Below, in pieces: positions 3,484 through 15,012 of a stretch of 64,000 nt of DNA (position 1 is the stretch's first letter; each line of letters opens with the position of its first letter). Origin of the DNA: Candidatus Kryptoniota bacterium (GTDB taxonomy: Bacteria; Bacteroidota; Ignavibacteria; Kryptoniales; JAKASW01); assembly GCA_036567965.1 (NCBI GenBank), contig DATCTN010000026.1:124001-188000 (forward strand). The letters run 5' to 3'. The notes beneath the pieces were generated by a model, which was given only the letters and a program-made list of their open reading frames with translations, made no database searches and had not been told where the DNA came from. The position numbers and the translations under genes were made by a program.

Positions 3484-5085
3484 CTAAAAGCTTATCCCAA
3501 TTTCCGCATTTATTTGTATGCTGTTCATCGTCGCGTCTATTATATCGTCAACTCCAATCGATATAAACCAGCGTGGCGAAATATAATAGTCGACGTAACC
3601 GGTAAGAGTCTGGGTCGAGTAGCTCTGCTGAACAGTGGAGACGGTTACGTTGTAGGAATCATATCGGAGAGTCAGCGAAAGTGAATAGAAGAAAGTCCGG
3701 TCGAGCTCGAACGAAAAGTCGCCGCCGTTCGTGAAAGCGCCAACAAAACTCGTGTACTGCAGTGCGGCATTCATGCCCGTCTCGAGGAGATCGCGCCCTC
3801 TTATCGTGCCTCCCAATGTGCGTTCATTTCGAGCGAATCCCTTTTCGGTCCTGAATGATCCGTTTGCAGAGAGCGTAAATTCGCCCGACAAATCTGCCGT
3901 AACGCTTCCTCTGAAACCCTGGAGAATATTCCTGTCGACAAGCGAATCGGGGATAGTTCTCATTGTCTGAAACAGATATACCTCTCGCGACGCGTCGTAC
4001 CCGAGGTTCGCAAACAGCCATTCAGCGGGATAATAGTTGACAGACAGGAAGGTGTTAGAAAAATTGAACGCGGTCTTCCTCGCTCCGTTTGAGAGCTCGC
4101 TCAGGTCTATTTCGGATGATTCATAAACCGAAGTCTTCGGGCCGAGCGAAACCATATTCTGAAGATAGAGGAAATCGCGGTCGAGCTTGCCGCCGACTGT
4201 TTGTACCCCGTAGGCGATTGTACCATCATATTGATGCGAAAAGTCTTCAGACGTGTGGTAATTAAGAAATGCGGCTGTCTTCGTTCCGCTGAAATTCAGA
4301 ACCGACGAGGGAATATTTGCCGCTGCGCCGCCTAGAAGTCCCGCGGTAAATTTGTCGATTCGGTAATAAATCTGCGCGCCGTCGAAAGTGCCCAGCCCGC
4401 CGACAAATCTTGATGTTAACCGGCCCAATCCGAATCCGAGTGGAGACTTCTCGTTTTCACGTGTCAGAGAAAAGTCGTAAAGATTTTGCTGGAAACCTTT
4501 CCTGTTGCCGTAAAGCGAATAATCATCAGGGGTCGAGTAGAATCCTCTGTCGTAAATTGACAGCGCGGTTCCGGTTCCGAATAGGTTGCCGAGTCTCATC
4601 TGCAGCATAAGTGCCGGTTGATTGAGATCGAATTTTGATTCTTCAGCGATTACGCCTTCATATTGGACTGCTATTCTTCCTGTTAAGATGTTTTCGACAG
4701 GTACACTGGACTTTTGGATTTGCGGAGCATTGCTCATCGCGTGCCGGCTCTTGTTGTTTGCTTGCTCGGACGCGATCGCCTGCGCCGATTCGTACCATAC
4801 ATCAATTGTTACTGAATCCCCCACAGTGAATTTCGAAAGTGCGCCGTGATACGATGCCGCGCTTGAGCTGTCGGCGATTGCAGTGATTATTGCGCTGCCT
4901 AGCTCGCTGCCGTTCTTGAATATGCGGGCTGTATCCCCCACCGAAATGTGATCGAGATTTCCCGCGCCCATGTAGATATTTGTCCCCGAGATGTAAGTAA
5001 TACGGGAATGAACTTCCTTCTTTTGTTGAGTCTGTGCGGAGGCAGCGCCGATCAATGATATAAGCAGGAAGATCGTTTGTTTCAT
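3484..5085 (-). CDS. outer-membrane beta-barrel protein of the cytochrome cluster
   Basis: The product is 533 residues from the ATG at 5085, chosen because it gives a clean signal peptide (MKQTIFLLISLIGAASA) and overlaps the upstream cytochrome stop as ATGA. A longer in-frame extension to 5199 would bury the signal. After the signal, about 90 residues contain a small beta-rich part (SRITYISGTNIYMG, VGDTARIF, VGDSVTIDVW), then a long region of alternating polar/aromatic strands. The last residues are AEIGISF with a terminal phenylalanine, as expected for an outer-membrane barrel recognised by BamA. I do not recognise a named family. Its place next to two multihaem cytochromes suggests an MtrB/PioB-like porin role by analogy only; no sequence relation to MtrB was established. 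Confidence 0.7.
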   Translation of the reverse strand: MKQTIFLLISLIGAASAQTQQKKEVHSRITYISGTNIYMGAGNLDHISVGDTARIFKNGSELGSAIITAIADSSSAASYHGALSKFTVGDSVTIDVWYESAQAIASEQANNKSRHAMSNAPQIQKSSVPVENILTGRIAVQYEGVIAEESKFDLNQPALMLQMRLGNLFGTGTALSIYDRGFYSTPDDYSLYGNRKGFQQNLYDFSLTRENEKSPLGFGLGRLTSRFVGGLGTFDGAQIYYRIDKFTAGLLGGAAANIPSSVLNFSGTKTAAFLNYHTSEDFSHQYDGTIAYGVQTVGGKLDRDFLYLQNMVSLGPKTSVYESSEIDLSELSNGARKTAFNFSNTFLSVNYYPAEWLFANLGYDASREVYLFQTMRTIPDSLVDRNILQGFRGSVTADLSGEFTLSANGSFRTEKGFARNERTLGGTIRGRDLLETGMNAALQYTSFVGAFTNGGDFSFELDRTFFYSLSLTLRYDSYNVTVSTVQQSYSTQTLTGYVDYYISPRWFISIGVDDIIDATMNSIQINAEIGISF

Positions 5086-5900
5086 CCGCCGCCTGTCGGG
5101 TGACAGTTGTAACAGGCGCTGCTCTGGTAGACGTAACCTCGAACGTTTGAGTGCTGTGGATCGGTTCTCCCGTGAGTGTGCTCGTGGCATGTCGTGCACG
5201 CGAGCGCCTGGAACCCGGCGGGAGTATCAGCTGTGTGACAATCCGTGCATTTGTTCCATACTCCGGGACTGTGTCTGTTTCCCGCGTGGATCGGGAAGTA
5301 AGGGTGAGGGAAAAACGCGGCTGGCTGCCATGTGAGAGAACGGTGGCATGTTCCGCACATTACCGAATAACCTGCCGCTGAGTGATTGGGCTCCTGTGTG
5401 GAATTGTATTCCGTCTGATGACACGCCACGCATTCGCTCGGAGTTCCACGATACCGGTTGCCCACATGGCACGAAAGACACGGGACCGCATCATGCGCAC
5501 CTCTGGTGGGAAACTGTGTAATGTTGTGATCGAAACTCGATTGCCATGAGATCCCGTCGATGCGGTGACATTGAGTGCAATCGGTGCCGAAACCGGCAAG
5601 CCGGTGGTCCACTGCCACTGCCGCGTCGTAATCTTTTTGATGACAGAAGTAACAGTTCTTGGGTGTGCCGGTAAATTTCAAGTCAGTGTGGCAGCTCCGG
5701 CAGGAGATCGCGCGGTGCTGGCCGTAAAGTTTGAAGCTGGTATTTGAATGGTCGAATTTCATCGGAGATGTCAGCACGGTCCAGCTGCCGGTTGTGTGGC
5801 AGTCGGTGCACTCCATCGCGATCTTCCCATGTGGAGATTCCTGTGCGAGCACGGTGGAGCACCACAATATTGTCGTGACAACGAATATAAATGGTCTCAT
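5082..5900 (-). CDS. periplasmic decahaem c-type cytochrome
   Basis: From the ATG at 5900 the product is 272 residues with a signal peptide (MRPFIFVVTTILWCSTVLAQ) and ten CxxCH haem-binding motifs: CTDCH, CRSCH, CYFCH, CTQCH, CLSCH, CVACH, CGTCH, CTDCH, CTTCH, CYNCH. Additional histidines of the type FDHSN and GQHRA, spaced between motifs, could supply distal ligands. An upstream GTG at 5933 overlaps the previous stop as GTGA, but the ATG has a GAGAGA ribosome site and a better signal peptide. The stop overlaps the start of the barrel-protein gene by four bases, suggesting translational coupling. It resembles the repeats of the neighbouring 20-haem protein and is expected to carry electrons in the periplasm or within the outer-membrane barrel. 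Confidence 0.88.
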   Translation of the reverse strand: MRPFIFVVTTILWCSTVLAQESPHGKIAMECTDCHTTGSWTVLTSPMKFDHSNTSFKLYGQHRAISCRSCHTDLKFTGTPKNCYFCHQKDYDAAVAVDHRLAGFGTDCTQCHRIDGISWQSSFDHNITQFPTRGAHDAVPCLSCHVGNRYRGTPSECVACHQTEYNSTQEPNHSAAGYSVMCGTCHRSLTWQPAAFFPHPYFPIHAGNRHSPGVWNKCTDCHTADTPAGFQALACTTCHEHTHGRTDPQHSNVRGYVYQSSACYNCHPTGGG

Positions 5901-5929: not shown

Positions 5930-7564
5930 TCACGCGGAATGGCAGTCAATACATTTTGTGCCGATCGGACGATATCTTGCTGTCCTCTTGCCATCGATAA
6001 GAACTGTCGGATGACATTTCTCGCACGCGACTCCTATGTGCTTGCCGGTTAATGGGAACGATGACTGAGTGTCATGGTCGAAATTTGTCCTCGTCCAGTT
6101 TTCCGCCGTATGACATCTGCCGCAATCTGTGAAACCCTCAATCATGAATTGCCCCTTATGCTCGTCTGCGTGACAGCTCGAACATTTCATATCGAGTCCG
6201 ACATATTGAACGGGAAGCGGTTCTGCCGGCTGAGTGTGGCATTTCGAGCATGCGATCTCCGCGTGCTTCCCGCGAAGAGGGAATCTCGTCTTTTCATGCG
6301 AAAACAGGAGCGATTGCCATGACACCGTCGTATGACATGTAACACATCCGCGAGCCATTTCATTCACGAATTGCCCACCGTGAATATTTGAATGACAGGT
6401 TGTGCAATCTATTTCTCCTTTCCAGCGGAACTGGAGTTTAGACTGGGCATTCACTTTTCCCGATTGATGGCAATCGTTGCAGGCGACCGCTTTGTGGGCG
6501 CCGGTAAGAATGTACCTCGTCTTCTGATGATCGTCTATGCTGAACTCCGCAGGTTTGAAGCCCGCGTCGATGTGGCATGCGTCGCATTTCCCGCCGTCGT
6601 CTCGATCGGCAAACTGTCCGGCATGCGCGTCGGCGTGACAGTCAGAACACGCCTGGAATTTAGTAATATGAAATCCAAGCTCACCAGATATGTTTTTCTT
6701 CATAGGATTGTCCGAGTGGCACTGTGAGCATTTCAAGTCGGCGTGCTTGCCGCGCAGAGGGAAGAGCGTTTTCGAATGATCGAATTCGGCCTTTGCAACG
6801 ATCACGAAAGTTTCTGTGGTGTGACACGACGAACAAGGTTGCTTGAACTCCCCTTTGTGTGGATCGGCGTGACATGAAACGCATGACGAAAAACTCATGT
6901 GAGTGAACTTGATCGTTTTTCCGTCGGCAAGAGTCTGGTTGTGACATTGATAGCAGCCTGTGGTCCTATGCTTTCCGGTCAGCACGAAATTTGTCCTGTC
7001 ATGCGAAAAGTTATCGGCGGGTTTCCAGCGTTCTGTTGTGTGGCACGAGGAACAGTTTGAACTGAGCTGGCCCTTGTGGATGTCTTCATGGCACGACTGG
7101 CACGACGTCGACAATCCGAGATATGTTATTTTTTGTTGAGTTGCAGGAAGAAGCTTCACGTCCGCTGCCGAAATGTTGTTGGTGTTGTGGCATTGGCGAC
7201 ATGAGGTAGACTTGTGTTTACCGGTAAGAGCGAACCCTACGGCGGAGTGATTGAATGTCGCGGTATCCAGAGGCATGATCTGGTAGTTTCTGCCGAAATG
7301 TTCGTGATGGCATTCCTGGCACATCTTCAGGCTGACTGTCGCATGGTATCCCTCGCCTTGTTTTATGCGGACGTTGATCTCCTTGTGACACGATAGACAT
7401 CTGGCGTTCGAAAGCGATTTCCCTATAGTGTGGCACTGGGTGCAGTTGCTCATCCCCTCCAGGTTGGCATGAGCGGTGGTCAACTCTCCGGGAGAAATTT
7501 GCCCGTAAGAAACGCCCGCCAGTATGTCAAGAATTGATAAAATCAGGACAGTTTTTGCTGTCAT
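5930..7564 (-). CDS. 20-haem c-type cytochrome made of tri-haem modules
   Basis: This 544-residue secreted cytochrome has a signal peptide (MTAKTVLILSILDILAGVSYG) and twenty CxxCH motifs. Haem 1 is followed by six similar blocks of three haems and then a single C-terminal haem. The last five blocks open with CxxCHxxxHxGQF-like sequence, continue with CxxCH and an aromatic stretch, and close with F-H, GKH/GAH and CxxCH. The extra histidines in each block are likely distal haem ligands. Such a chain would form a long periplasmic wire. It lies between the membrane cytochrome b gene and the decahaem gene, and its stop abuts the latter. Expression needs a cytochrome c maturation system that is not encoded in this window. 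No ribosome site is obvious upstream of the ATG. Confidence 0.9.
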   Translation of the reverse strand: MTAKTVLILSILDILAGVSYGQISPGELTTAHANLEGMSNCTQCHTIGKSLSNARCLSCHKEINVRIKQGEGYHATVSLKMCQECHHEHFGRNYQIMPLDTATFNHSAVGFALTGKHKSTSCRQCHNTNNISAADVKLLPATQQKITYLGLSTSCQSCHEDIHKGQLSSNCSSCHTTERWKPADNFSHDRTNFVLTGKHRTTGCYQCHNQTLADGKTIKFTHMSFSSCVSCHADPHKGEFKQPCSSCHTTETFVIVAKAEFDHSKTLFPLRGKHADLKCSQCHSDNPMKKNISGELGFHITKFQACSDCHADAHAGQFADRDDGGKCDACHIDAGFKPAEFSIDDHQKTRYILTGAHKAVACNDCHQSGKVNAQSKLQFRWKGEIDCTTCHSNIHGGQFVNEMARGCVTCHTTVSWQSLLFSHEKTRFPLRGKHAEIACSKCHTQPAEPLPVQYVGLDMKCSSCHADEHKGQFMIEGFTDCGRCHTAENWTRTNFDHDTQSSFPLTGKHIGVACEKCHPTVLIDGKRTARYRPIGTKCIDCHSA

Positions 7565-7598
7565 CGATGCGTCATTTTAATAATTTACCAGGAGAACG

Positions 7599-7627
7599 AT
7601 TTAAAAGGGACAGAGAATTATTTTCAA
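7599..7627 (-). promoter_or_regulatory. possible sigma70-like promoter before the 20-haem gene
   Basis: On the minus strand TTGAAA and TTAAAT are separated by 17 bases, about 35 bases upstream of the cytochrome ATG. The -10 element matches the consensus in four of six positions. It lies in a 216-bp gap, so an internal promoter of the redox cluster is possible. Confidence 0.3.
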
Positions 7628-7780
7628 ATGGTCGAATTTATTTTGGAAACCGGAAAACGTTTTGTCTCTGACCGGGATCGTCCCCGTTCTGTAAAAAGGT
7701 CTAAGCTGTGAGATGCCCCTTCATTGTGGGAAGAAAATATCCAGCTGTCTGCATAGAATCAAGTGCGATGACTTGTCCGG

Positions 7781-8662
7781 TCACTTCCATATCCATGTAT
7801 ATCCCAGAGCGACCGCGACTCCGACATGCACGATCAAAATCGCCAGCATGACGATCGAGAAGGGGAGATGAATGACATGCCAGTAATGAAATACCTGCCT
7901 GAGCTTTTCAAGAGCGAGAATCCGCTGCCTGAGTACGATGCGGTCGTTTGCGACGCGAGCGATTTCGCGTACCGAATTCTCCGGGATGGAATGCTCGCGA
8001 AGAGTCTTCTTAAGCATCTTGACCCGTCTCGCTCTCGAGAAATCTACCGCGAAGAGATATAGGGTCAACCGAATCAATCCCGCTTTCGACTCGTCAAATT
8101 TATGTGTCCCGATACTTTCAATCGAATCGATGACGGAGCTGTCAAGATTGTGTTTTTCCTTTACCGATTGCAGGAGGCGGCTTCTCTCCTCCTCGAGATC
8201 TTTGGCAGTCAGTTCCTGTCCCTCTATATTTTTCGGGATGTGCCTGTAGAAATAGCGGCCGATGAAACCGCTCAGGACGACCGCCGACATGCTCCAGAAC
8301 CCGACAGCCGCAATGCCGCCGAACTTAAAAGTGGTATGGTACAAAACGAGTATGGGTCCCACAAGGCACATAAAGATATGAAATTCGAGATAATCTTTGA
8401 TCTTGCCCAGGTGAGCGAGGCGCCTCACTCTTTTTCTCGACGAGTATATCGCGACACCGATGAAAATCATGGCGGTCCCTATGATACCGTATCCATGACT
8501 CTCGAATCCGCTCGGCTTAAGTTCTTCATACAATGCATGAGTTGGCCTTTCGTCGAGAGGCAAAAGGTAGTACGTATAGTTCTTGATCCAAATCGAGACG
8601 GCGGTCAGTAAACCAACCGACACCAGGAAGATGGTGAAGATCGTATGGGGAAGTTTTTTCAT
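7781..8662 (-). CDS. two-haem transmembrane cytochrome b-like protein
   Basis: This 293-residue integral membrane protein has about five helices (near 8-28, 57-75, 93-111, 117-137 and 262-286). The third helix carries H95 and H109 and the fifth carries H265 and H279. Both pairs are fourteen positions apart, the H-x13-H pattern with which two stacked b-haems are held across a membrane in cytochrome b and ferric-reductase-type proteins. Between helices four and five lies a charged loop of about 115 residues, probably cytoplasmic because RKRVRR after helix two marks the inner side. It is the first gene of the minus-strand redox cluster, so it is a good candidate for the inner-membrane step passing electrons to the periplasmic cytochromes. 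I do not recognise a named family. Confidence 0.7.
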   Translation of the reverse strand: MKKLPHTIFTIFLVSVGLLTAVSIWIKNYTYYLLPLDERPTHALYEELKPSGFESHGYGIIGTAMIFIGVAIYSSRKRVRRLAHLGKIKDYLEFHIFMCLVGPILVLYHTTFKFGGIAAVGFWSMSAVVLSGFIGRYFYRHIPKNIEGQELTAKDLEEERSRLLQSVKEKHNLDSSVIDSIESIGTHKFDESKAGLIRLTLYLFAVDFSRARRVKMLKKTLREHSIPENSVREIARVANDRIVLRQRILALEKLRQVFHYWHVIHLPFSIVMLAILIVHVGVAVALGYTWIWK

Positions 8663-8673
8663 AGATTCAGGGA

Positions 8674-8724
8674 AGGCCGGGGCAGCCCCTGTGGGAGAAT
8701 TGTAAGATTGTAAACGGCCGGCCT
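8674..8724. repeat. GC-rich inverted repeat in the 5' leader of the redox cluster
   Basis: AGGCCGG at 8674-8680 is repeated in inverted form as CCGGCCT at 8718-8724, with 37 bases between. It starts about 12 bases upstream of the cytochrome b ATG and would lie in the leader RNA if transcription starts at the promoter proposed at 8808-8835. It could form a structure that affects translation. Confidence 0.45.
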
Positions 8725-8807
8725 GAGAGATATTTGGAGCGATATGTCAGCAAGAGTTCCTGCTTCAAGTGGTTGGATTAGTAATTGGAGCCTCGTTCAC
8801 AAAGTGC

Positions 8808-8835
8808 AATTTAGTAGACGCCCGCAAAAATTCAA
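8808..8835 (-). promoter_or_regulatory. possible sigma70-like promoter of the redox cluster
   Basis: On the minus strand TTGAAT and TAAATT are separated by 16 bases. The leader to the cytochrome b start would be about 140 bases and would contain the inverted repeat at 8674-8724. This is a pattern match only. Confidence 0.35.
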
Positions 8836-8984
8836 GAGTTTAATGGCTGGGGCAATTAAGTCGGGGCCGAAATATCTGCGTGGCCGTATGTACCGAAAGC
8901 GGCATTCGTGGTTTTGTCGCCGCTGGCACCGTTAGATTGTTCTAGAGAATCATTATATTGAAGACACATTATAAGATTGGGCAG

Positions 8985-10481
8985 ATGATGAAAGTGCTTC
9001 TTGTGTACCCCGGTTACCCCGATACATTCTGGAGTTTCAGACATGCGTTGAAATTTATCTCCAAGAAAGCGGCGTTCCCGCCACTTGGTCTCCTTACTGT
9101 TGCCGCGATGCTTCCTGAGAATTGGGAAAAGAAACTGATCGATCTTAATGTCGAGACGCTGGACGACAAACACATACTATGGGCCGATTATGTTTTTATC
9201 AGCGCTATGTCGGTACAGCGCGAATCATCGAAGGCTATAATTGCCAGGTGCAATAAGCTGGGAAGAAAAGTGGTTGCCGGTGGGCCTCTGTTCACTTCTT
9301 CGCACGACGAGTTCGAAGGGGTCGACCACTTTGTTCTTAACGAGGCCGAACTTACGCTTGCCTCTTTCGTTACCGATCTGCAGGCGGGTGACGCGAAAAA
9401 GATTTATACTTCGACGGATTGGGCTGATGTTTCCCGGACTCCTCCTCCGCTGTGGGACCTGATCAACTTCAAACATTATGCGTCGATGAACGTGCAGTAC
9501 TCGCGCGGCTGTCCATATGACTGCGAGTTCTGCGACATAACCGTTTTATACGGACGCGTACCCCGGACAAAGTCGAAAGAACAGATCGTCACCGAGCTTG
9601 ATAATCTATACGACCACGGATGGCGGGGTCCGGTCTTCTTTGTCGACGATAACTTCATCGGAAATAAAAACAAGTTGAAGCACGAGCTGCTCCCGGAGAT
9701 CATCGAGTGGGAGAAGAAGAGGAACCACCCGTTCTATTTCAACACCGAGGTATCGCTGAACTCTGCGGACGATGACGTGCTGCTGCGGATGATGGTACAG
9801 GCGGGTTTCAATGCCGTGTTCGTAGGAATTGAATCGCCGAACGAGGAGAGCCTGCAAGAATGCAAGAAAATTCCCAACAAGAATCGGAATCTCGCCGAAA
9901 GTGTGAGAAAGATCCAGAAGTTCGGAATGCAGGTTCAGGGCGGTTTCATCGTGGGATTCGACAGCGATCCATCCACGATCTTCGACCGACTCGTGGCGTT
10001 CATACAGGAAACCGGAATTGTCACAGCGATGGTCGGTTTGCTGAACGCGCCGAAAGGCACCCGGCTTTACAAGAGAATGAAGGGTGAGGGAAGACTCATA
10101 TCGCATTTCTCAGGCGACAACACAGATTTTTCGATGAACTTCATACCAAAGATGAGCCGCGAAGCACTCATCAAAGGATACAAGAACATAGTCGGGAAAA
10201 TCTATTCGCCGTCGGAGTATTACGCACGCGTGAAGAAATTCATGAAGGACTTTAAACCTCCCCAGGCGAAGGTGTTCCGTGTGAATTTCGACGACATCAA
10301 GGCACTCTTTAAATCTGCCGTGATCCTGGGAATCTTCAGGAAGGAGCGGGTGTATTACTGGCGGTTATTCTTCTGGTCGCTCTTCACGCGTCCGAAGTTA
10401 TTTCCTCTTGCGATCACCTTTTGCATTTACGGTTTTCACTTCAGAAAAATATTCGAAGATAATATAGCGAGCCTGTCCTAG
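8985..10481 (+). CDS. B12-binding radical SAM protein with DUF4070-like C-terminus
   Basis: The product is 498 residues from the ATG at 8985; a TTG at 8958 would add nine residues with no better ribosome site. The N-terminal part (VLLVYPGYPDTFW, then VAGGPL) looks like a cobalamin-binding Rossmann domain of the MMT/HpnP type. The radical SAM core follows with SRGCPYDCEFCDI, the CxxxCxxC cluster that binds [4Fe-4S] and S-adenosylmethionine. GGFIVGFDSDP is typical of the core, and the C-terminal region resembles DUF4070, which occurs in HpnP-like methylases. It therefore probably modifies a lipid or other poorly reactive carbon, but the substrate is unknown. It stands alone, divergent from the cytochromes and convergent with the GH3 gene. 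The class is secure. Confidence 0.85.
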   Translation: MMKVLLVYPGYPDTFWSFRHALKFISKKAAFPPLGLLTVAAMLPENWEKKLIDLNVETLDDKHILWADYVFISAMSVQRESSKAIIARCNKLGRKVVAGGPLFTSSHDEFEGVDHFVLNEAELTLASFVTDLQAGDAKKIYTSTDWADVSRTPPPLWDLINFKHYASMNVQYSRGCPYDCEFCDITVLYGRVPRTKSKEQIVTELDNLYDHGWRGPVFFVDDNFIGNKNKLKHELLPEIIEWEKKRNHPFYFNTEVSLNSADDDVLLRMMVQAGFNAVFVGIESPNEESLQECKKIPNKNRNLAESVRKIQKFGMQVQGGFIVGFDSDPSTIFDRLVAFIQETGIVTAMVGLLNAPKGTRLYKRMKGEGRLISHFSGDNTDFSMNFIPKMSREALIKGYKNIVGKIYSPSEYYARVKKFMKDFKPPQAKVFRVNFDDIKALFKSAVILGIFRKERVYYWRLFFWSLFTRPKLFPLAITFCIYGFHFRKIFEDNIASLS

Positions 10482-10490
10482 CAGACAGGC
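10471..10490. terminator. hairpin between convergent genes
   Basis: GCCTGTC and GACAGGC form a perfect 7-bp stem with a six-base loop that contains the TAG stop of the radical SAM gene. It lies 13 bp before the stop of the convergent GH3 gene and could serve both directions. No T-run follows, so termination is not certain. Confidence 0.45.
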
Positions 10491-10502
10491 CCGCCTGTAA
10501 TA

Positions 10503-13034
10503 TCACTCCTGAATCGTTCCCTTGAGCTTCAGGTCCCTGCTCGAACTCCCGATCATTATATCGTATTCACCGGGACGTGTTGCCCACGCGTCGGTGGTCA
10601 AGTCATAATGCGCGAAGTCGGCGCGCAAAACCTCGAACCTGACCGTCGTGCTCTCACCGGCCTTTAACGAAACCCTGGCGAATCTCTTCAACTCCTTGAC
10701 CGGTACAGGAGTCGTCGTTCCCGGATCGTGCACGTAGAGCTGGGCAATCTCGACTCCTTCCCGCTTGCCGACGTTCGCGAGTTCAAAAGTCACTTCATAA
10801 TTTCCTGATCCACTACCGCCCATTGGCTCGACTTCCAGATTCTTGTATTCGAAATCCGTGTAAGAAAGTCCGTATCCGAACGGGAAGAGCGGTTTTATGT
10901 TATACTTGTCGAAGTGCCTGTACCCGACGAAGATCCCGTCACTGTAAACTGAGACGCTGTCCTGTTTCCTGTATGAATCGTATGCCGAACAGTCTTTCCA
11001 TTGCATTGGAAATGTCACCGGCAGTTTCCCCGATGGATTGTGATTTCCCAGAAGAACGTCCGCGATCGCGTTGCCCGCTTCGTCACCGCCGAACCATGCC
11101 TCGAGGGCAGCGGGCACGTCACCGATCCATTTATTCATAAGGACCGGTGCACCCGAAATCACAACAACGATCGTATTCTTGTTTGCCCCGCAGACTTTCT
11201 TGATGAGCTCGTCCTGGTCTGCCGGCAGTGCCATGTCGTCCCTGTCGAATCCTTCGGACTCATACTGGCTGGACGTCCCGACAAAGAGGATCGCGACATC
11301 GGATTTTTTCGCGGCCTCAACAGCCTCTTTGACCGGATCTCTTCCGGAGGACTTCATTCCCAGGATTGCAAGAGCTCCCCCTTCGTCCTGGTAATACTCG
11401 AACTTCAAATCGTAGTATTTGTCTTTCTTCAACTCAAGCGAATAAGAACGCGCTATGGGCGGATGGTCCCTCCAGTCGTCGATGACCATTTTTCCGTCAA
11501 CATAGAGCCGGATGCCGTCGTCGCCCATCCCTTGCAGCTGGTAATATCCGTCTTCCTGCACTTTAAGTTTAGTGGTCCATCTCACGGAAAAATGATCCGC
11601 CGGAATTCCCTCAGCCGGAGATCTTCCGGTCCAATTGAAGTGAATCTGCTCGTCGTTTCTGGTAACCTTCGGCGTTCCATTCAATGATTGATTGTCGAAA
11701 TATTCTGCGTGTAACCCGTGGACGTTGGTATTGTCCGGAAGATAAAGGAGCGAGCTGTCGATCGGCTGGACATCTCCGTTGAGTTCGGATCCCTCCGCAA
11801 AGTTAATCTTGATTTTATCGCCGAGTTTGTTCTTTAGCGCCTCGAGCGGACTAACTGAATAAACCGGTGTCACCATCGCACTGCCGCCGCCTTGCGTTCT
11901 TGCCTCCGCGGCATTCGGTCCGATGACAGCGATAGACTTCAACTTGTCGGGATTCAGCGGCAGGATATTGTCCCTGTTCTTGAGCAGAACAATGCCTTCG
12001 ACTGCAGCCTGGTAGGCGACCTTTTGATGTTCAGGAGTATTTATGAGCGTTGAATCGGCGGACCGATTTTCATCGAACAGACCGAGCGTGAACATCACCC
12101 GGAGAATCCGCCTTACCTTTTCGTTTATTGTGCTTTCCTTCACCGTTCCGTCGTGGACCGCATCCGCGAGAGTGCCCGGATTCAGAAACTCGCCGGTCGG
12201 CATCTCCAGGTCCAGACCGCCGTTGGCGGTTGGGATCGTGCTGTGAACCGCGCCCCAGTCGGACATGACGAGGCCGTCGAATTTCCATTCGTCCTTTAGC
12301 TTGTCCTTAAGTATGTAATCGTTCTCGCTGCAGAAGTGGCCGTTAATCTTGTTGTACGCAGACATAACCGCGAGAACTTTTCCTTCTTCGACTGCGGCTT
12401 TGAAAGCTGGGAGGTAGATTTCATTCAGCGTCCGCTTGTCAATCTTCTCGTCGACAAATCCGCGTTCGAATTCCTGATTGTTCGCCGCGAAATGTTTTAC
12501 GGTAGCGGCGACCTTCTCGCTCTGTACACCCTGGATATAGCTCACAGCCATTCTCGATGCGAGGTAGGGGTCCTCGCCGTAGCTCTCGAAGTCTCTTCCG
12601 CCGATCGGCAGCCGCGCGATATTGACGCACGGCCCGAGTATGACGTCCCTTCCTTTTCCCCTCAGCTCTTCTCCGATGGATTTGCCGACACGGTTGATGA
12701 GTGAGGTGTCCCATGATGCTGCCATTGCCATGCCGGCCGGAAATGCGGTTGATCTTCCCCACCTGACGCCGAGCGGTCCATCCGACATTTTCAGTTCGGG
12801 AATTCCGAGGCGTTCGTTGGGCTTCGTCGCGAACCCGGTACCTCCAAGCATCGATAGCTTCTCGTCCATCGTCATTCTTCCCAGAAGATCTTCAACACGT
12901 TGATCTACCGGTAGGTTCGGATTTTTATAAACTGGCACAGTAGACCCCTGCGGTCTTGGTCCTGCACCCGACGTCAAGAGAGATATAGCCGCTGCAAAGA
13001 CCACTACAATTGAATCCGGAAGAAATCTGTTCAT
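10503..13034 (-). CDS. secreted beta-glucosidase, GH3 family with PA14 domain
   Basis: The product is 843 residues from the ATG at 13034, which has an AAAGGAAAG ribosome site; a GTG at 13049 is less likely. A signal peptide is visible (NRFLPDSIVVVFAAAISLL). The GH3 N-terminal domain holds KHFAANNQE and VMSDWGA with the catalytic aspartate (about residue 259 in this numbering). The second GH3 domain contains a PA14-type insertion (HGLHAEYFDNQSLNG to about LAILGMKSSG). The acid/base glutamate is probably in YESEGFDRDD. A fibronectin III-like C-terminus (FELANVGKREGVEIAQLYV) closes the protein. Such enzymes release glucose or other sugars from the non-reducing ends of beta-glucosides, and the PA14 lobe shapes the substrate pocket. 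The exact specificity (glucosidase, xylosidase, other) cannot be read here. Confidence 0.9.
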   Translation of the reverse strand: MNRFLPDSIVVVFAAAISLLTSGAGPRPQGSTVPVYKNPNLPVDQRVEDLLGRMTMDEKLSMLGGTGFATKPNERLGIPELKMSDGPLGVRWGRSTAFPAGMAMAASWDTSLINRVGKSIGEELRGKGRDVILGPCVNIARLPIGGRDFESYGEDPYLASRMAVSYIQGVQSEKVAATVKHFAANNQEFERGFVDEKIDKRTLNEIYLPAFKAAVEEGKVLAVMSAYNKINGHFCSENDYILKDKLKDEWKFDGLVMSDWGAVHSTIPTANGGLDLEMPTGEFLNPGTLADAVHDGTVKESTINEKVRRILRVMFTLGLFDENRSADSTLINTPEHQKVAYQAAVEGIVLLKNRDNILPLNPDKLKSIAVIGPNAAEARTQGGGSAMVTPVYSVSPLEALKNKLGDKIKINFAEGSELNGDVQPIDSSLLYLPDNTNVHGLHAEYFDNQSLNGTPKVTRNDEQIHFNWTGRSPAEGIPADHFSVRWTTKLKVQEDGYYQLQGMGDDGIRLYVDGKMVIDDWRDHPPIARSYSLELKKDKYYDLKFEYYQDEGGALAILGMKSSGRDPVKEAVEAAKKSDVAILFVGTSSQYESEGFDRDDMALPADQDELIKKVCGANKNTIVVVISGAPVLMNKWIGDVPAALEAWFGGDEAGNAIADVLLGNHNPSGKLPVTFPMQWKDCSAYDSYRKQDSVSVYSDGIFVGYRHFDKYNIKPLFPFGYGLSYTDFEYKNLEVEPMGGSGSGNYEVTFELANVGKREGVEIAQLYVHDPGTTTPVPVKELKRFARVSLKAGESTTVRFEVLRADFAHYDLTTDAWATRPGEYDIMIGSSSRDLKLKGTIQE

Positions 13035-13167
13035 GCTCTTTCCTTTCACAGATATTGTTCAAAGTTCGATACTGACCTGAGATTTTTCGATTCTGTATTT
13101 TAGACAAGCTTCAATTATCATTGTTCAGAGAATCCAGTTGAAATATACGAGACAAGCCTGAAAGATG

Positions 13168-13195
13168 TTGATTTTGATGGAATCCTGACTATCTT
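13168..13195 (+). promoter_or_regulatory. possible sigma70-like promoter
   Basis: TTGATT and TATCTT are separated by 16 bases, and the -10 element ends 22 bases before the TTG start of the HEGGH membrane protein gene. It would give a very short leader. Confidence 0.35.
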
Positions 13196-13217
13196 TTTAT
13201 GTTAAGAAACAAATCCC

Positions 13218-13772
13218 TTGAACAAATTCATAATTATTATACTTGACGTCATCGTGGTCGCAATAGTGGCATACTTTAGCTGGTTTCTTGCCACAGACTA
13301 CCAGACCTTCCAGGGAAGATTTCATTTGCCGTTCGTGCTGTGGGTGATCGACACTGTCGATCTTTTCATACATGAGGGCGGACACTTCTTTTTCGGATTC
13401 ATGGGGAGAATGATTTACTTCATGGGCGGGTCGTTGATGCAGATTGTCCTCCCGTCTCTTGCGGTCTGGGTCTTCCTTAAATCCGGATACCGCACGCTCA
13501 TCGCTACATTATACTGGCTCGGCCAGAATCTTGTAAATGTTTCCGTGTACATCGGCGACGCTCCATATAAAAGGCTCCCGCTCATTTCGGACAGCGCGAT
13601 ACACGACTGGAACTGGATCTTTAACCAAGCGGGAATGATGAACGAGGCCGGGACGATCTCAGGAATTGTTCTCGTTCTGGGAATTATTTCCTGTTGCGGA
13701 GCCGTGGTGACCGCGCTGTTCTTCCTCGAGGCCGATGTCCGTGCTGCCTTCTCCGCGGAAGAGAATGATTAA
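13218..13772 (+). CDS. putative membrane zinc metalloprotease (HEGGH, M50-like)
   Basis: This 184-residue membrane protein starts with a TTG, the only start that keeps the first helix (about residues 3-24). It carries H52-E53-G54-G55-H56 inside a hydrophobic segment, matching the HExxH zinc signature and its position in site-2/M50-type membrane proteases. Further hydrophobic segments lie near 65-90, 97-112 and 148-172. The length is short for RseP-type enzymes and there is no PDZ domain. The third ligand is not clear; an aspartate in VYIGDA could serve. It overlaps the Dabb gene by eight bases. The protease call is inferred from the motif and topology, and a non-enzymatic membrane protein remains possible. 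Confidence 0.55.
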   Translation: MNKFIIIILDVIVVAIVAYFSWFLATDYQTFQGRFHLPFVLWVIDTVDLFIHEGGHFFFGFMGRMIYFMGGSLMQIVLPSLAVWVFLKSGYRTLIATLYWLGQNLVNVSVYIGDAPYKRLPLISDSAIHDWNWIFNQAGMMNEAGTISGIVLVLGIISCCGAVVTALFFLEADVRAAFSAEEND

Positions 13773-14055
13773 GCACGTGGTGTTTTTCAAATTCCATCCG
13801 GGCACGCCGGATGAAGAAAAGTCGAAAATGGAAAACGGGTTGAGAAATCTTCGGTCACACATCCCCGAGATAAAGAATTTCGAATTGGGAAAAGATGTTG
13901 TTCATTCAGAGCGATCGTTCGACTTCGCGCTGATCGGTACGTTCGACGACCTGGAGTCGCTGAAGAAATACGCTGCGCACCCCGAACATCAGAAAGTTTT
14001 GAAACTTATCAACCGGATCTGCGGTAGTATCAAATCGGTGGACTTTGAAACTTAA
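13765..14055 (+). CDS. Dabb (stress-responsive A/B barrel) domain protein
   Basis: This is a 96-residue single-domain protein. The ATG at 13765 overlaps the previous stop (ATGATTAA) and yields the classic beginning MIKHVVFFKF of the dimeric alpha/beta-barrel family. Other family features are LRSHIPEIKNFELGKD, SFDFALIGTFDDLESL and YAAHPEHQ. Members include plant stress proteins and small bacterial enzymes or binding proteins; most bacterial copies have no known function. Translational coupling with the HEGGH membrane protein suggests they are made together, but no shared function is known. Confidence 0.85.
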   Translation: MIKHVVFFKFHPGTPDEEKSKMENGLRNLRSHIPEIKNFELGKDVVHSERSFDFALIGTFDDLESLKKYAAHPEHQKVLKLINRICGSIKSVDFET

Positions 14056-14097
14056 CAAACGGATGGTCTCAAGTCATATGGAGGGAACCGGTTAAGA

Positions 14098-15012
14098 ATG
14101 TCTGAAGTAATCTTAGAGACTGCGGGATTGAGCAAGAAATTCGGGAGCCGCTGGGCTGTGAAGGATCTCAACCTTCGCGTGAACGCCGGCGATGTATTCG
14201 GTTTCCTCGGACCAAATGGCGCGGGGAAGAGTACGACGATAAGGATGATTCTCACTCTGCTTGAACCGACATCGGGAAATGTGAAAATATTCGGGACCGA
14301 AGTGAGACGCAGCAGGGAGTTCGTCCTCTCGAGGGTGTGCGGAATTGTAGAGAAACCAGATTTCTACCTTTACCTCTCCGCTTACAGGAATCTGGAGATC
14401 CTCGGCTCGCTCACGCGCAAGGTCACAAAGGATGAGATTCATAACGCGCTTGAAATCGTCGGACTGAAATCGAGGGCGAAGGATCGGGTAAAAACATTTT
14501 CACACGGTATGAAGCAGAGACTCGGCATCGCGCAGGCCATCCTGACGAAACCGGAGCTAGTGATACTTGACGAGCCGACATCGGGACTCGACCCGCAGGG
14601 AATGAAGGAAGTGCGGGACCTCGTCCGCACTCTCTCGAAGGATCATGGGACAACGATACTTCTCTCCTCACATCTCCTTACCGAAGTCGAGGCGGTTGCA
14701 AACAGGATGGCTGTATTGAATCACGGAGAACTTGTTGCGCAGGGTGATGTCTCGGAGCTACTCAACGGTGACAGGACTTATTACTCCATTACGGCGACTC
14801 CGCGGGAGAAAGCGCTGGAGATCCTGCGGAAGCTCGATTGGGTCGAGGTGGCGCAGGCTGATGCCGCGATCGACGTCCACATCGATTCATCCCGTGCAGC
14901 CGAATTAAATAGAATTCTCGTCACGGGCGGTGTGGAAGTCTCTTCGTTTGCAGCCAGGCGGACGCTCGAAGATTATTTCCTGAAAATTACGGAAGGAGCG
15001 TCCGAGGTATGA
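14098..15012 (+). CDS. ABC-2 type exporter, ATP-binding subunit
   Basis: This 304-residue ATPase belongs to the CcmA/BcrA group. Walker A is GPNGAGKST, the signature region is FSHGMKQRLGIAQA (a variant of LSGGQ), and Walker B is LVILDEPTSGLDP, followed by the H-loop in LLSSHLL. The last 90 residues form the usual C-terminal extension of this group. It couples ATP hydrolysis to the permease encoded next, whose ATG overlaps its stop as ATGA. A GGAGGG ribosome site lies upstream. The substrate (drug, lipid, peptide) cannot be told. Confidence 0.9.
   Translation: MSEVILETAGLSKKFGSRWAVKDLNLRVNAGDVFGFLGPNGAGKSTTIRMILTLLEPTSGNVKIFGTEVRRSREFVLSRVCGIVEKPDFYLYLSAYRNLEILGSLTRKVTKDEIHNALEIVGLKSRAKDRVKTFSHGMKQRLGIAQAILTKPELVILDEPTSGLDPQGMKEVRDLVRTLSKDHGTTILLSSHLLTEVEAVANRMAVLNHGELVAQGDVSELLNGDRTYYSITATPREKALEILRKLDWVEVAQADAAIDVHIDSSRAAELNRILVTGGVEVSSFAARRTLEDYFLKITEGASEV

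Follow-up and report, generated by a model that had tools for sequence, protein, structure and literature searches.

The window (the whole 64,000-nucleotide stretch of DNA that was analysed) carries five co-directional genes on its minus strand, whose coordinates are listed in Table 1. In their reading order they code a membrane protein with the features of a di-haem b-type protein, a 20-haem cytochrome, a second multihaem cytochrome, a predicted 22-strand outer-membrane barrel and a [4Fe-4S]/FAD reductase. The start codon of the barrel gene overlaps the stop codon of the preceding 10-haem gene (ATGA). No molybdopterin or other terminal reductase was recognised in the five-gene set by Pfam or NCBIfam searches.

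Table 1. Genes of the five-gene set and repeat units of the 20-haem protein, with their positions in the window.
Feature	Position	Strand	Remarks
Predicted inner-membrane protein, 293 aa	7781..8662	minus	HX13H pairs His 95/109 and 265/279; SGFIG at 131
20-haem cytochrome, predicted to be exported, 544 aa	5930..7564	minus	ATG start; signal-peptide-like N-terminus
N-terminal tri-haem cap, residues 22-86	7307..7501	minus	haems 41, 56, 82; His 32, 74, 89
Module M1, residues 100-175, 3 haems	7040..7267	minus	candidate distal His 106, 117, 163
Module M2, residues 182-248, 3 haems	6821..7021	minus	candidate distal His 188, 199, 236
Module M3, residues 257-331, 3 haems	6572..6796	minus	candidate distal His 263, 274, 314
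Module M4, residues 340-411, 3 haems	6332..6547	minus	candidate distal His 346, 357, 395
Module M5, residues 417-485, 3 haems	6110..6316	minus	candidate distal His 423, 434, 469
Module M6, incomplete, residues 492-542, 2 haems	5939..6091	minus	candidate distal His 497, 509
Second multihaem cytochrome, 10 haems	5082..5900	minus	ORF from GTG 5933; ATG 5900 looks like the start
Predicted outer-membrane beta-barrel, 533 aa	3484..5085	minus	22 predicted strands (about 133-532) and a small N-terminal beta domain
FAD/[4Fe-4S] protein, 433 aa	2115..3416	minus	N-terminal hydrophobic helix, two ferredoxin motifs, YpdA/thioredoxin-reductase-like FAD/NAD(P) domain

The 20-haem protein has exactly 20 CxxCH motifs, each taken here as a putative haem site, at residues 41, 56, 82, 122, 155, 171, 204, 228, 244, 279, 306, 327, 362, 387, 407, 439, 461, 481, 514 and 538. 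These positions agree with the first-pass annotation, which had counted 20 haems spaced as 1+6x3+1. All 40 cysteines lie inside the motifs, the histidines number 43, and the spacing from first to last motif is 25.1 residues per haem. Pfam identified Cytochrome_C7 (PF14522; 3.9e-21), whose gathering cut-off is passed over five stretches of the protein (75.1 versus 24.8 bits), and Cytochrom_c3_2 (1.2e-18). Six further Cytochrom_c3_2 matches lie outside the window in the same genome (G000, contigs C21, C27, C28, C30 and C31), which points to additional multihaem cytochromes in this bacterium.

The best NCBIfam matches include the DmsE-family decahaem cytochromes (TIGR03508; 49.6 bits versus a cut-off of 192.2), ExtO/ExtN (35.9 and 35.5 versus 200) and HmcA (18.9 versus 400). 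The Geobacter c7 family nanowire_3heme (TIGR04257, GSU1996) scores 25.3 versus 40. Assignment to the DmsE, ExtN/O, HmcA, GSU2203 or OmcA/MtrC families was rejected as every NCBIfam score is below its cut-off, and a DmsE-type protein would have 10 haems instead of 20. The identity of the top matches could suggest that the protein serves as electron donor to a reductase of the DmsE, selenite/tellurite or Hmc-like kind, soluble or periplasmic, with no extracellular route. We consider this very improbable: the scores are far under the cut-offs, and the gene set has a barrel but no recognised terminal reductase. The AlphaFold2 model of the 20-haem protein is good locally (pLDDT 83.7) and has a low pTM (0.45), as expected for an extended chain; it is consistent with a linear wire but does not prove it. 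A PDB sequence search gave no match below E 0.01, Foldseek returned a single row at chance level and VIA-align weak rows only (Z up to 3.4), so that no solved homologue is claimed. We take Geobacter GSU1996 to be the nearest solved tri-haem tandem.

The protein had been described as six tandem tri-haem modules. A tri-haem internal repeat is indeed present: with C/H columns masked, mean identity among its six modules is 22.8%, far above the 6.8% mean (sd 0.9, maximum 9.6%) of 1000 within-module shuffles, and the self-similarity on which that description depended is thus found. Its first block (haems 56, 82 and 122), however, differs in kind. It starts with CLSCHKEI..GYH..CQECHHEH and is part of a separate N-terminal cap found in other proteins too. 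The sequence divides more naturally as 3+5x3+2 (a cap with three haems, five 3-haem modules and a last module with two), the full module having the order F-H, G(K/A)H, CxxCH, CxxCHxxxHxG(Q), CxxCH. BLASTP searches with residues 1-135 matched the cap to 7-haem cytochromes encoded on plasmids of Sphingomonas (E 1e-14) and Glaciecola (E 7e-12), which the later modules also match more weakly. On both plasmids (L140:7971-11457 and L142:2312-5669) a gene for a [2Fe-2S] protein is followed by one for a small HX13H membrane protein and, immediately after it, by the 7-haem cytochrome gene. Cap-bearing cytochromes are found next to HX13H membrane proteins on Alpha- and Gammaproteobacterial plasmids, and the cap may be a docking end for membrane proteins of this type. 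This would place the N-terminus of the 20-haem protein at the inner membrane and its C-terminus towards the outer membrane. The Glaciecola plasmid set adjoins a NiFe hydrogenase operon.

Additional histidines in regular positions had also been proposed, and they are real: 20 histidines outside the motifs are conserved, 19 of them in all 69 orthologues of the alignment and His 163 in 68. The other three non-motif histidines of the window protein are present in 2, 1 and 7 of the 69 sequences. The conserved residues are distributed as three in the cap, three in each of the five complete modules and two in the last module. The 1:1 ratio between 20 CxxCH motifs and 20 other conserved histidines provides one candidate distal ligand per haem, and all 20 haems are probably bis-histidine.

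The regularity of the repeat had been attributed to recent internal duplication. For the 20-haem protein this was rejected. Of 522 modules from 87 distinct orthologues, 505 were closest to the module at the same position in another species, 16 to a module at some other position of another protein and a single one to a module of the same protein. Mean identity is 32% between same-position modules of different proteins versus 23% between different modules of one protein. Tandem Repeats Finder detected no module-length tandem DNA repeat in the 20-haem gene, the only repeat between positions 5000 and 7600 of the window having a 9-base unit. The closeness of same-position modules across species shows that the duplication is older than the spread of the family.

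Relatives of the protein were confirmed by an alignment-based scan of genome contigs, which yielded 530, while a single-sequence scan confirmed none. The haem number is 20 in 17/17 proteins of a first orthologue set, and a 20-motif ORF is found in 75 of 80 named loci, which are the best 80 of the 530 confirmed relatives and are skewed to close relatives. The exceptions are L077 (19 motifs, its ORF beginning past the first one), L081 (split ORF), L093 (19), L129 (18) and L119 (23). The 23 haems of L119, found also in an Emticicia plasmid protein, correspond to one extra module. Such constancy bears on the possibility of a charge store, in which the 20-haem protein would be soluble in the periplasm and act as a capacitor for respiratory electrons, the role suggested for GSU1996. 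The tri-haem tandem build resembles that of GSU1996, to which the cited portions of PMC10138318 give a capacitor role, and the number of residues per haem is low. Nevertheless, a constant haem number and a constant link to an inner-membrane haem protein and a barrel fit a length-constrained bridge better, and GSU1996 is described as having one His-Met haem per domain (PMC10138318) while a conserved histidine candidate exists here for all 20 haems. We regard the capacitor role as improbable.

The second multihaem cytochrome is much less constant. The window protein and those nearest to it have 10 haems, and the number elsewhere reaches 67; the window protein has 23.7 residues per haem from first to last motif. 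A set of 70 partners and partner-like proteins was assembled from 55 complete ORFs of the named loci and 15 proteins from the window and further genomes, the latter including second copies and three proteins located elsewhere (G011c, G002c, G001c). Seventeen contig-cut partners, three loci without a downstream cytochrome and the five loci lacking a 20-motif ORF were left aside; L037, with its pair of overlapping ORFs, and L035, at the end of a contig, are excluded from the partner counts. The haem number follows a 3n+1 rule in 50/70 proteins when only CxxCH is considered and in 63/70 when CxxxCH and CxxxxCH are counted too, in sequences that share kinship and are not independent trials. The seven that deviate are L062, where the assembly has a gap, L075, L105 and L107, which lack the last motif, L099, whose usual C-terminus is missing, and L094 and L130, which have unusual motifs. 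The partner of L130, from a Marinimicrobia MAG (11505-15011), has five CxxxxCH and 37 CxxCH motifs, four of the CxxxxCH being about 125 residues apart.

In five genomes from the same genus as the window, the partner has 15, 18, 22, 24 and 30 CxxCH motifs, showing that its length changes between close relatives. Recent duplication does occur, in this neighbouring gene and in genomes other than that of the window: the best module-pair identity reaches 0.99 in G054 and 0.97 in L060, L108 and L128, compared to only 0.38 in the window, and the G054 partner DNA has a 420-base tandem unit (88% match). Partners with 61 to 67 CxxCH motifs are single polypeptides encoded immediately 3′ of the 20-haem gene (L116:6407-11557, L072:11563-16128, L110:11506-16173 and L032:4563-9749). 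The partner of L037 is found as two overlapping ORFs in frames that differ from each other, with 29 and 24 haems (7192-9978 and 9644-11503), which can be an assembly error, a pseudogene or a true split. Inspection by eye of the C-terminus of the window partner recognised no cell-surface sorting signal. With only 10 haems, this partner may merely span the outer membrane.

The 293-residue membrane protein has no Pfam or NCBIfam match. Its hydropathy fits five helices, and its histidine pairs occur as YX3HX13H at residue 91 and WX3HX13H at 261, with Tyr instead of Trp in helix 3. Two HX13H motifs are found in 68/69 homologues and SGxxG also in 68/69; from these motifs the protein likely holds two b-haems. 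The barrel was modelled with a pLDDT of 84.2 and a pTM of 0.67, its strands being counted in the predicted strand list. It aligns with an outer-membrane TonB-dependent receptor barrel (Z 19.1, rmsd 4.9, 342 aligned residues), and MtrB is absent among the 50 rows listed for each structure search. The FAD/[4Fe-4S] protein matches Pyr_redox_3 (1.9e-47) and Fer4_10 (1.6e-10) in Pfam and, under its cut-off, YpdA in NCBIfam (1.4e-54). Cluster cysteines 60, 66, 70, 91, 97 and 101 are kept in at least 95% of 67 sequences, and its N-terminal helix, as read from the sequence, would anchor the protein to the membrane. In L118 (8696-11578), a contig labelled Alphaproteobacteria, the FAD/Fe-S enzyme and the 20-haem protein are encoded in a single 960-aa frame, a fusion or a missed stop.

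Within the best 80 of 530 relatives, tblastn found the membrane protein near the 20-haem gene in 73/80 loci, the FAD/Fe-S protein in 71/80 and the barrel in 53/80; many of these loci are short contigs or cut by contig ends. By their record titles, the named relatives include Ignavibacteria, Melioribacteraceae, Bacteroidales, Prolixibacter, Calditrichota, KSB1, Zixibacteria and Eisenbacteria. A phylum-wide sample (E <= 1e-60) has the 20-haem protein in 38/395 genomes and 31/170 genera. In the isolate Emticicia oligotrophica DSM 17448 the set lies on the 100-kb plasmid pEMTOL02 (L139, NC_018749.1 71543-97369) with the maturation gene ccsA: genes for CcsA, the membrane protein, the FAD protein, the 23-haem and a 40-haem cytochrome and the barrel are consecutive. 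The roles of the membrane, FAD and barrel genes were assigned by position, and that of the membrane protein on further evidence as well. Its presence on a plasmid suggests that the conduit may be mobile.

The organization described above is best explained by an outward conduit in which a PCC3-type porin-cytochrome system has the 20-haem protein as its periplasmic bridge of fixed length, a reading that we consider probable. Electrons from NAD(P)H or ferredoxin would enter the membrane-anchored FAD/[4Fe-4S] enzyme and be carried across the inner membrane by the pair of b-haems in the HX13H protein. They would then be passed to the N-terminal tri-haem cap and run along 20 bis-histidine haems to the C-terminal end at the outer membrane. 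There the second multihaem cytochrome, possibly held in the 22-strand barrel, would receive them and deliver them to an extracellular acceptor (a mineral, an electrode, humics or a partner cell). The bridge would be held at 20 (rarely 23) haems because the width of the periplasm is constant, while the outer cytochrome would be free to vary by whole tri-haem modules, from the 10 haems of the window protein to as many as 67. A point against this reading is that part of the group lacks the conduit: in the phylum sample the 20-haem protein was found in 38 of 395 genomes.

The same conduit could work in reverse: a cathode, Fe(II), Mn(II) or Fe(0) would donate electrons at the barrel, and these would reach quinones, or NAD(P)+ via the FAD enzyme. 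PCC3 was found in iron oxidisers and is drawn as inward in the cited part of PMC5566968, and the genome of the window also encodes a haem-copper oxidase (on contig C30, one of those with a Cytochrom_c3_2 match). One relative (L115) is the iron-corroding Prolixibacter denitrificans DSM 27267; its corrosion is put down to nitrite in a 2021 paper (PMC8368055, in the portion cited), which weakens the best example for electron uptake, and it was dropped as proof. In addition, the conserved pyridine-nucleotide/[4Fe-4S] enzyme (71 of the best 80 of 530 relatives) points to a strongly reducing donor on the inner side. Inward flow is the main rival reading, which we hold to be rather unlikely.

Taking the outward conduit further, we propose a Bacteroidota-centred system with its own NAD(P)H/ferredoxin input enzyme, a bridge that the width of the periplasm keeps at 20 haems and an outer wire quantised as 3n+1 (n = 3 to 22) that is lengthened by duplication of a tri-haem module of ~70 residues. 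Wire length would be genetically adjustable and differ even between close relatives. This combined proposal is tentative, its chances being slightly below even.

PCC3 was proposed in 2017 for Proteobacteria and comprises a porin, extracellular and periplasmic cytochromes and a membrane protein (He et al. 2017, PMC5566968; here and below as given in the cited portions of the papers). Its extracellular cytochromes have a median of 34 haems (up to 85) and the periplasmic ones a median of 21, at 22-39 residues per haem; the porins have up to 42 strands. The inner-membrane protein has ~300 aa and five helices, with SGXXG in helix 4 and WX3HX13H in helices 3 and 5. A 2023 survey of Gallionellaceae (PMC10734462) reported periplasmic proteins of 21, 24 or 27 haems and a second cytochrome of 10-35. 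The set described here resembles PCC3, by comparison with the published description rather than by sequence alignment, in having an HX13H membrane protein, a predicted periplasmic and a variable multihaem protein and a predicted barrel. The window membrane protein (293 aa) has SGFIG and two HX13H with one Tyr-for-Trp change. The 22-strand barrel model has homologues in 53 of the 80 named loci (best 80 of 530), the predicted periplasmic protein has 20 haems, close to 21, and a second cytochrome has 10 in the window and 10-67 in relatives. Both cytochromes also share few residues per haem (25.1 and 23.7, inside the range of 22-39). PCC3 cytochromes are modelled as long and linear, a shape that the 20-haem protein may share. 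The differences are the Bacteroidota-centred lineage, a periplasmic member of 20 haems (23 in two cases) as opposed to 21, 24 or 27, the 3n+1 rule of the outer member, 22 predicted barrel strands versus up to 42 and the conserved FAD/[4Fe-4S] reductase, a gene that the cited PCC3 description does not mention. The kind of conduit and the idea of a variable-length wire are already known. No description of a Bacteroidota PCC3 form, of the FAD/Fe-S partner, of the count of one histidine per haem or of the 3n+1 rule was found in the open-access literature searched. The results extend PCC3-like conduits to Ignavibacteria, Bacteroidales and related phyla and supply a candidate electron-entry enzyme (FAD/[4Fe-4S]) for a model published, in the portions cited, without one.

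Other systems share single aspects of this organization. The Geobacter dodecahaem 'nanowire' GSU1996 is likewise one polypeptide of tandem tri-haem c7-like domains with haems in line, but it has 12 haems in four domains, each with a His-Met haem, whereas the protein studied here has 20 haems, 20 conserved histidines and a cap (PMC10138318, in part). The MtrCAB, MtoAB and DmsE decahaem conduits follow the same logic of a periplasmic multihaem protein, a barrel and an outer cytochrome. MtrA of 6r2q is the best VIA-align row, a weak one (Z 3.4, rmsd 3.1, 69 residues); these systems differ by their 10 haems versus 20 here and by the DmsE score far under its cut-off. A Burkholderiales pair of 24 and 49 haems beside a porin is also alike, with a conserved smaller protein and a larger one that varies by insertion and deletion of CxxCH domains, yet it belongs to another phylum and its larger protein has no 3n+1 rule reported in the portions of PMC7399161 cited. 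The distinction made here between a bridge of fixed length and a wire of variable length is the most testable part of the results: natural variants of 10 to 67 haems, with the same module and the same bridge, allow the effect of wire length on extracellular electron transfer to be tested across strains.
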